NCBI RefSeq assembly: GCF_005780165.1 | Contig: NZ_VAUV01000009.1 | Coordinates: 1-64,000 of the forward strand | From: Phragmitibacter flavus | GTDB taxonomy: Bacteria; Verrucomicrobiota; Verrucomicrobiia; Verrucomicrobiales; Verrucomicrobiaceae | Direction of reading: 5' to 3' | Length of the DNA: 64,000 nucleotides | Shown: positions 1 through 11,426 of the stretch, in pieces | How positions within the stretch are numbered: position 1 is the first letter of the stretch | Layout of the letters: every line of letters begins with the position of its first letter | The notes under the pieces: generated by a model | The model's database searches: none | Told to the model about the DNA's origin: nothing | What the model saw: the letters and a program-made list of their open reading frames with translations, nothing else | Position numbers and translations under genes: made by a program

Positions 1-46
1 CCTCCCTGCGCCCCCGTCCACTCACCCCCTCCCCTCCCCCCACCCC

Positions 47-177
47 CCACTTCCCACTGCCCACTGCCCACCTCCCACTTCCCACCGCCCACTGCCCGCT
101 CCCCACTGCCCACTGCCCACTGCCCACTGCCCACCGCCCACCGCCCACTGCCCACTGCCCACTGCCCACTGCCCACT
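47..177. repeat. C-rich heptamer tandem repeat upstream of nuoF
   Basis: A tract of imperfect tandem copies of CCCACTG, with variants CCCACCG, CCCACTT and CCCGCTC, runs from about 47 to 177, preceded by a looser C-rich stretch from base 1. The unit is 7 bases, so expansion or contraction would change spacing and, if translated, frame. It lies directly upstream of the Rex-like operator and nuoF. No coding sequence is evident within it. Confidence 0.85.
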
Positions 178-185
178 TCTCCCGC

Positions 186-203
186 TTGTGAAAAATTTCA
201 CAA
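186..203. promoter_or_regulatory. Perfect Rex-type operator upstream of nuoF
   Basis: The 18 bases TTGTGAAAAATTTCACAA form a perfect inverted repeat (TTGTGAA, 4 A/T bases, TTCACAA). This is the established consensus for the NADH-sensing repressor Rex, which controls NADH dehydrogenase and fermentation genes in other bacteria. It sits 41 bases before the ATG of nuoF at 245. Its identity as a Rex site is inferred from the match and the target gene; no rex gene lies in this window. Confidence 0.75.
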
Positions 204-244
204 ATTGCCCTTGCCCCCATTTTCACTCAGCCGCATCTTGTCCC

Positions 245-6473: not shown

Positions 6474-7067
6474 ATGAAAGAATTCGCCTTCATCCACGAA
6501 CACGGTCAGGTCCCGCCGTCGCTGCGCTCGCTTCCGTTTCTGGGATCATTCAACGACGATCAGCTTGACGATGTCCTCAACTCCAGCAGCTACATCAACT
6601 GCGAAGAGGGCGATGTCATTATCGAGGAAGGCACCTTCGACTCGCGCATCTACATTCTGCTCAGCGGTGCGGTCAATGTCTGCAAGGACAACAAGGTGCT
6701 CGTCACCATCGAACGTTCCGGTGAAGTTTTCGGAGAGATCGCCGTGGTCAACGAAGATCGCCGCAGCGCCTCAGTCGTTGCGGCCAAGCGGTCCGTCTGC
6801 CTCGCGGTTGACCAAAAATTCCTGCAGGACTTCAAACCGCGCGACGAAGATCCCGCCTTTTACGCCGCCCTCTACGAATTCATCGCCCGCGTCACCGCCG
6901 CGCGGCTCCAGAGCACCTCCCGCCGCCTCACTGAGGTCGAACTCGAACTGCGCGCGCTGAAAGAACAGATGGCCAACTCTTCCGTTGCTACGCGTGCAAT
7001 ACCAACGGTCGCCAAACCCAAGGGCAAGGCAAAACCATCCCGCAAAAAACTGACCGCAAGCGCTTGA
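6474..7067 (+). CDS. Cyclic nucleotide-binding domain protein
   Basis: A 197-aa cytoplasmic protein with one cNMP-binding beta-roll (about residues 20-135): glycine turns at EGDVIIEEG and LLSGAVNV, and a phosphate-binding-cassette-like stretch GEVFGEIAVVNEDRRSASV, where E and R are in the positions that contact ribose and phosphate in CRP-type domains. There is no helix-turn-helix; the rest is a helical segment and a basic Lys/Pro tail (KPKGKAKPSRKK). It therefore looks like a stand-alone regulatory or signalling domain rather than a transcription factor. Its stop overlaps the TTG start of the next gene, so the two are probably co-translated, and they lead into the MglA operon. Confidence 0.85.
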   Translation: MKEFAFIHEHGQVPPSLRSLPFLGSFNDDQLDDVLNSSSYINCEEGDVIIEEGTFDSRIYILLSGAVNVCKDNKVLVTIERSGEVFGEIAVVNEDRRSASVVAAKRSVCLAVDQKFLQDFKPRDEDPAFYAALYEFIARVTAARLQSTSRRLTEVELELRALKEQMANSSVATRAIPTVAKPKGKAKPSRKKLTASA

Positions 7068-10986: not shown

Positions 10987-11426
10987 TACGCATGGATGCC
11001 AGCGCCGCCGAAGCCTATTTTCATCAGCAAATGCCCCTCACCAAGGCCATGGGGCTGCGTGTGGAATCCTGTGATGCCGATCACATTGAACTCAGCGCCC
11101 CGCTTGAGCTGAATCACAACCACCTGGGCACCGCCTTCGGTGGCAGCCTCGCCGCTCTCGCAACTTCTGCCGGATACGGCATGCTGTGGACCATCCTGCA
11201 AGATCCGAGCTTCCATCTCGTCATTCGCAACAGCAGCCTCACCTACCATCGCCCGGTGCGCGGTCCAATCCGCGCCATCTGCCGCCGACCCGACGAAGCC
11301 CCCCTCGCCGAATTCCAGTCCACCCTTGCCGCCAAAGGCAGGGCCCGCATCGATTGCGAAGTCCACATCGAAGAAAACGGCGAACGCGCCCTTACCTTCA
11401 TCGGCACCTTTGTTGCCATTCGCTAG
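10983..11426 (+). CDS. Hotdog-fold thioesterase (YiiD C-terminal type)
   Basis: A 147-aa protein with the hotdog thioesterase pattern: an N-terminal strand, the long central helix region LGTAFGGSLAALATSAGY where the acyl-CoA or acyl-ACP substrate binds in relatives, and strands ending ALTFIGTFVA. It resembles the C-terminal domain of YiiD-type proteins. Two starts are possible: GTG at 10983, which overlaps the mglA stop (GTGA), or ATG at 10992. I use 10983 because of the coupling arrangement, and because GGAAG lies 10 bases upstream; only three residues differ. Substrate is unknown. Confidence 0.75.
   Translation: MIRMDASAAEAYFHQQMPLTKAMGLRVESCDADHIELSAPLELNHNHLGTAFGGSLAALATSAGYGMLWTILQDPSFHLVIRNSSLTYHRPVRGPIRAICRRPDEAPLAEFQSTLAAKGRARIDCEVHIEENGERALTFIGTFVAIR

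Follow-up and report, generated by a model that had tools for sequence, protein, structure and literature searches.

The nuoF upstream region

The window, by which we mean the whole 64,000-nucleotide stretch analysed (contig C9, 1-64000), begins at the very end of its contig (C9:1) and opens with a seven-base minisatellite, an 18-bp inverted repeat and nuoF, the gene for the NADH-binding subunit of complex I (Table 1). The repeat, TTGTGAAAAATTTCACAA, lies 41 bp 5′ of the nuoF ATG. A GTG-started reading frame of 484 aa overlaps the repeat and is unlikely to mark the gene start, the ATG at 245 being the likelier one for NuoF (TIGR01959). The gene apparently forms a transcription unit of its own. 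Among named relatives its product is closest to those of Verrucomicrobium sp. BvORR034 and BvORR106 (89%), of Prosthecobacter MAGs and of further Verrucomicrobiaceae, so that the organism most likely belongs to this family.

The minisatellite is probably the cause of the contig break at position 1. The start of contig C24 holds the 5′ end of nuoF, the palindrome and the minisatellite in reverse, with 1 mismatch in 111 bp from the palindrome outward. The array on C24 (L027 120-333) is followed by a membrane-metalloprotease-like gene (L027 390-1049) with an HELGHAFL motif, M50-like by eye, which is divergent from nuoF with the minisatellite in between. No array of this kind was noted upstream of nuoF in the relatives' sequences read; a similar repeat-rich stretch also lies 5′ of nuoA in this genome (L282).

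Table 1. Features of the nuoF upstream region (window positions) and exact 18-bp sites in the genome (contig:position where given).
Feature	Location	Strand	Remarks
7-bp minisatellite (CCCACTG)n	46..177	+	directly 5′ of operator; at least 30 copies on contig C24
Putative Rex operator TTGTGAAAAATTTCACAA	186..203	+	18-bp inverted repeat, A/T-only spacer
Putative −35 box TTGCCC	211..216	+	7 bp 3′ of operator
Putative −10 box CATCTT	234..239	+	weak here; GATAAT/GATACT in relatives
nuoF, complex I NADH-binding subunit, 465 aa	245..1642	+	TIGR01959, 574.7 bits against a cut-off of 558.65
Site	C2		before nuoD-nuoE
Site	C8		before atpB and ATP synthase genes
Site	C9:186		before nuoF
Site	C9:191661		before actA-actB, then more alternative complex III and cytochrome oxidase genes
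Site	C11:90337		before nuoH-I-J-K-L-M-N
Site	C11:93091		before nuoG
Site	C14		before nuoB-nuoC

The initial annotation had described the palindrome as a perfect operator for the redox regulator Rex, and this holds at every position, since it is an exact match to TTGTGAANNNNTTCACAA, the generalized Rex consensus of Ravcheev (2012) in the form in which PMC5317091 quotes it. It agrees exactly as well with the form established for Staphylococcus aureus, TTGTGAAW4TTCACAA with an A/T spacer (PMC2883068). The spacer, AAAT, is A/T-rich, as mutational data for S. aureus require (PMC2883068), and among 100 aligned sites 78 have either ATTT or AAAT. TTGTGAN6TCACAA occurs exactly nowhere else in the window, where the sole match with two mismatches, at 11069, is at the level found in shuffles. 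With a GC content of 0.56, base composition would give about 0.002 exact sites per 64-kb window and 0.2 per 5.91-Mb genome. The nuoF palindrome is almost certainly a Rex binding site.

Sites and rex in the genome

The genome (5.91 Mb in 44 contigs, 99.9% complete) contains eight exact 18-bp sites, while the reversed control gave none. As the match at C24:94 repeats the end of contig C9, the eight correspond to seven distinct loci, and all seven precede respiratory or ATP synthase genes at a distance of 20-90 bp (Table 1). The target genes were named by reading their translations, and the same proteins later served as queries in relatives. Further sites upstream of other respiratory genes had been proposed as a check of the Rex assignment, and six more perfect ones are thus present. 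Complex I is here made up of several transcription units, nearly all with a perfect site of their own. It would seem probable that one redox sensor controls respiration as a whole in this lineage. The operator is absent from the flanking DNA read around nuoA (C8:76019, L282), which stands apart from the other complex I genes and has a small ORF and a hemA-like gene downstream of it. No cyd or hem sites were found.

That the palindrome might be a repeat element or a chance sequence with no regulatory role has some appeal, in that the 18-mer is nearly identical everywhere and the genome-wide search gave no site with one or two mismatches. The flanks, however, are unrelated past about 10 bp, the sites are placed before respiratory genes only and they are kept across families with different flanks. 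Placement and conservation already refute this origin, and we give it practically no weight. Sites with three mismatches do appear to be chance matches, as several were checked and none lay before a recognised respiratory gene, some being inside ORFs. A 16-bp palindrome at C4:58471, inside a lipid-kinase-like ORF, is likewise put down to chance. In a relative, G051, TGTGAGCAATCACA and 14-mers related to it turn up about 15 times, several of them clustered, and are probably an unrelated repeat.

The presence of a rex gene, the other check that had been suggested, is borne out. There is one, at C4:305160 (PF06971, E=1.7e-17), and its product, of 206 aa, exceeds the curated cut-offs of several NCBIfam Rex models and has both the winged-helix and the NAD-binding domain. 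The product matches eight distinct solved Rex sequences, the best being that of Thermotoga maritima (E=1.9e-45, via entry 7WB3). Of the 12 DNA-contact residues defined in the ternary complex of T. maritima Rex (PMC8836258), 10 are identical (R13, S34, K44, Q47, R49, K50, G59, R61, G62 and Y65). The remaining two are changed (E34D and S52T), at positions that fall among those the same study calls not conserved.

Conservation and co-occurrence with rex

Among 80 named NuoF loci an exact site is found 31-94 bp 5′ of nuoF in 30, and in 28 more it heads a nuoD-E-F or nuoE-F unit; the remaining 22 include many truncated contigs. The palindrome is therefore kept before nuoF in relatives, either directly or at the head of the unit. 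Some 70 sites from twelve genomes of the order and class were read, and nearly all of them lie before nuoB, D, E, F, G, H or I, atp genes or actA, and the rest before nuoM, atpA, atpD, atpG or the genes for a polyprenyl diphosphate synthase, NDH-2, MqnE and cytochrome oxidase subunit II, these remaining targets being identified by eye from the sequence, without profile search. In G054 there is a separate site at each of nuoBC, D, E, F, G, H, I and M, and at separate atp genes. Sites on separate nuo and atp units in relatives imply that complex I has been split repeatedly and that the fragments carry their own operator. The lineage clearly illustrates how an operon can be broken up while nearly every fragment keeps or regains the site of a transcription factor.

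The sites and rex occur together. In 57 relatives exact sites are present in 51 and a rex match in 48. The six genomes with no sites, all of genus g12, have no rex either, and the three with sites and no rex match are 76-85% complete. When only relatives that are at least 90% complete are considered (49 of the 57), 43 have rex and sites and six have neither. Genus g12, without both, offers a natural comparison group. The wider set was drawn from a sample of the phylum and comprised its 126 genomes from this order and class, with counts read by hand and five weak PF06971 matches (E about 1e-4 to 1e-3) not scored as rex. Of these genomes, 23 have both, one has rex only, three have a single site and no strong rex match, and 99 have neither (Fisher p = 6.5e-21, with genomes treated as unrelated). 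The genome with rex and no exact site is G338. Within genus g26, G286 and G297 have rex and sites and G260 has neither, an apparent second joint loss. In the rest of the phylum exact sites are rare, although rex is common. That Rex control reaches this lineage, as the initial annotation had supposed, is supported by the rex gene, the sites and their conservation before nuoF.

The co-occurrence also bears on whether the palindrome could be the site of a CRP/FNR-family regulator. The consensus of that family, TGTGA-N6-TCACA, shares the half-sites, which are thus compatible with either regulator, yet the A/T-only spacer and the outer TT and AA fit Rex. The helix-turn-helix domain HTH_Crp_2, searched for with PF13545 alone, was not detected in this genome, nor in G007, G045, G050 and G056, which carry sites; genus g12, by contrast, has HTH_Crp_2 matches and no sites, and the sites track rex across genomes. 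We therefore reject a CRP/FNR regulator, on the missing HTH_Crp_2 match and the co-occurrence of rex and sites, and regard it as highly improbable. A 197-aa protein encoded at 6474-7067 of the window looks by eye as though it has a cyclic-nucleotide-binding domain. Since the genome has no HTH_Crp_2 match, this protein should not be taken for a CRP regulator.

Promoter geometry and the proposed control

When the sites are aligned on the gene strand, a TTG follows the operator by 5-7 bp in 83 of 84 nuo, atp and ndh2 sites (7 bp in 60, 6 bp in 11 and 5 bp in 12), and at this offset it is found in one of 19 act, prenyl-synthase and mqnE sites. At the nuo and atp promoters it typically belongs to a TTGCCG −35 box, which is followed after 16-17 bp by a −10-like hexamer, commonly GATAAT, GATACT or AATAAT. 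The best −10 match scores on average 3.82 of 6, compared with 2.33 (sd 0.09) for shuffled sequence. The arrangement suggests a sigma-70-type promoter at nuo and atp with the operator centred near −50. A sigma-54 reading of the TTGC box was discarded on inspection, as its GG would fall on operator bases that are not GG. The initial annotation had also given nuoF a promoter of its own. This is supported by a conserved −35/−10 pair between the site and the ATG in relatives, although the −10 box here is weak. The start site for nuoF would fall at about the ATG, so that its mRNA may be leaderless. At several act and prenyl-synthase promoters the −35/−10 pair ends just 5′ of the operator (TTGCAA-16-TACAAT at actA here), so that the operator would lie at about the start of transcription; the remaining ones gave no clear promoter.

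These positions add to the case on CRP/FNR regulators, which often activate from upstream of −35. The nuo and atp placement resembles such activator sites, but the act and prenyl-synthase sites are near or after the recognisable start, where activation is unlikely.

We consider it very probable that the palindrome is the operator of Rex, an NAD(H)-sensing dimeric repressor, at a separated nuoF, and that it provides NADH-released control of respiration. With NAD+ predominant, Rex would occupy the operator beside the −35 box and transcription would be kept low. As NADH accumulates Rex would be released and nuoF transcribed, and with it nuoBC, nuoDE, nuoG, nuoHIJKLMN, the ATP synthase operon and alternative complex III would be induced together. 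Joint induction would let the cell reoxidise NADH, a high NADH/NAD ratio lifting the repression of NADH oxidation and of the use of the proton gradient. What this analysis shows is the sites with the genes they precede, the presence of rex, its co-occurrence with the sites, their conservation and the fixed promoter geometry; binding, release by NADH and repression we infer from the Rex proteins that have been studied, which bind in the presence of NAD+, dissociate with NADH and act as repressors (PMC2883068, PMC5355995). In Streptomyces avermitilis, nuoA-N, atp, cyd and ndh are all direct targets of repression by Rex (PMC5355995). If correct, this would provide a testable regulator candidate for most of this phylum's respiratory chain.

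The least certain step is the sign of control at the −50 sites. An operator upstream of the core promoter would be less obviously repressive than one overlapping −35 or −10. Rex at about −50 might instead activate nuo and atp, or block another activator, rather than act directly on RNA polymerase. The rigid spacing to −35 across unrelated promoters is what contact with polymerase or another factor would produce. Known Rex proteins, however, act as repressors, even where the site is a few bp outside the promoter (PMC2883068). The act site is placed differently, and a position near +1 would mean repression there; for complex I and complex III to respond with opposite signs would be physiologically odd. 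Either alternative role thus seems unlikely, though less so than a CRP/FNR regulator. The same sign at nuo/atp and act is simpler to assume, given that the two complexes have to function jointly.

Among known systems the regulon comes close to the Rex regulon of S. avermitilis and S. coelicolor. The operator consensus is the same there, and so are the respiratory targets, with nuo, ATP synthase and an NADH dehydrogenase under direct control (PMC5355995). In Streptomyces, however, nuo is one operon with one imperfect site, whereas here complex I is split and most units have a perfect one. Also unlike Streptomyces, alternative complex III joins here and a prenyl diphosphate synthase and mqnE join in relatives, and the cyd and hem sites are missing from those found. 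With S. aureus the lineage shares the identical operator and the A/T-rich spacer (PMC2883068), but the targets there are mainly fermentative and anaerobic genes and every site found in this genome precedes respiratory-chain or ATP synthase genes. The type of operator and regulator is already known; it is the layout of the regulon that is notable. No paper on Rex in Verrucomicrobia was found in the open-access literature searched, where three things seem to be unreported: a Rex regulon in Verrucomicrobiales, the way it covers scattered complex I units as well as alternative complex III, and its fixed promoter geometry. They would carry the Rex redox switch into a phylum that has been little studied.

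Taking the break-up and the geometry together, we tentatively suggest, at somewhat less than even confidence, that a portable composite promoter re-equips the pieces of a broken-up complex I and ATP synthase and that Rex acts from two positions. The unit in Verrucomicrobiales would be a Rex operator, 5-7 bp, a TTGCCG −35 box and a GATAAT-like −10. The two positions would be upstream of −35 (nuo and atp) and near the start (act and the quinone-synthesis genes), possibly with different effects on transcription. If so, co-regulation would survive genome rearrangement.

The region upstream of rex itself

An autoregulatory site at rex is frequent in other lineages and is no requirement for a Rex operator. 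In the phylum sample G106 and G213 have their single site directly before rex, like autoregulated Rex genes elsewhere. The 18-bp operator is absent at rex in this genome, where a 16-bp variant with a spacer 2 bp shorter, TTGTGAATTTTCACAA, abuts the start codon (L005 1474-1492, contig C4). GTGA-N4-TCAC lies two bases 5′ of the rex start codon in all 19 family f1 loci read, many of which have TTGAC upstream, and the GTGA-N4-TCAC motif is missing from the family f2 loci read. Changes in spacer length strongly weaken binding by S. aureus Rex (PMC2883068), and the 16-bp palindrome is thus a doubtful candidate for autoregulation. It coincides with a likely −10 box, which suggests a leaderless rex mRNA.
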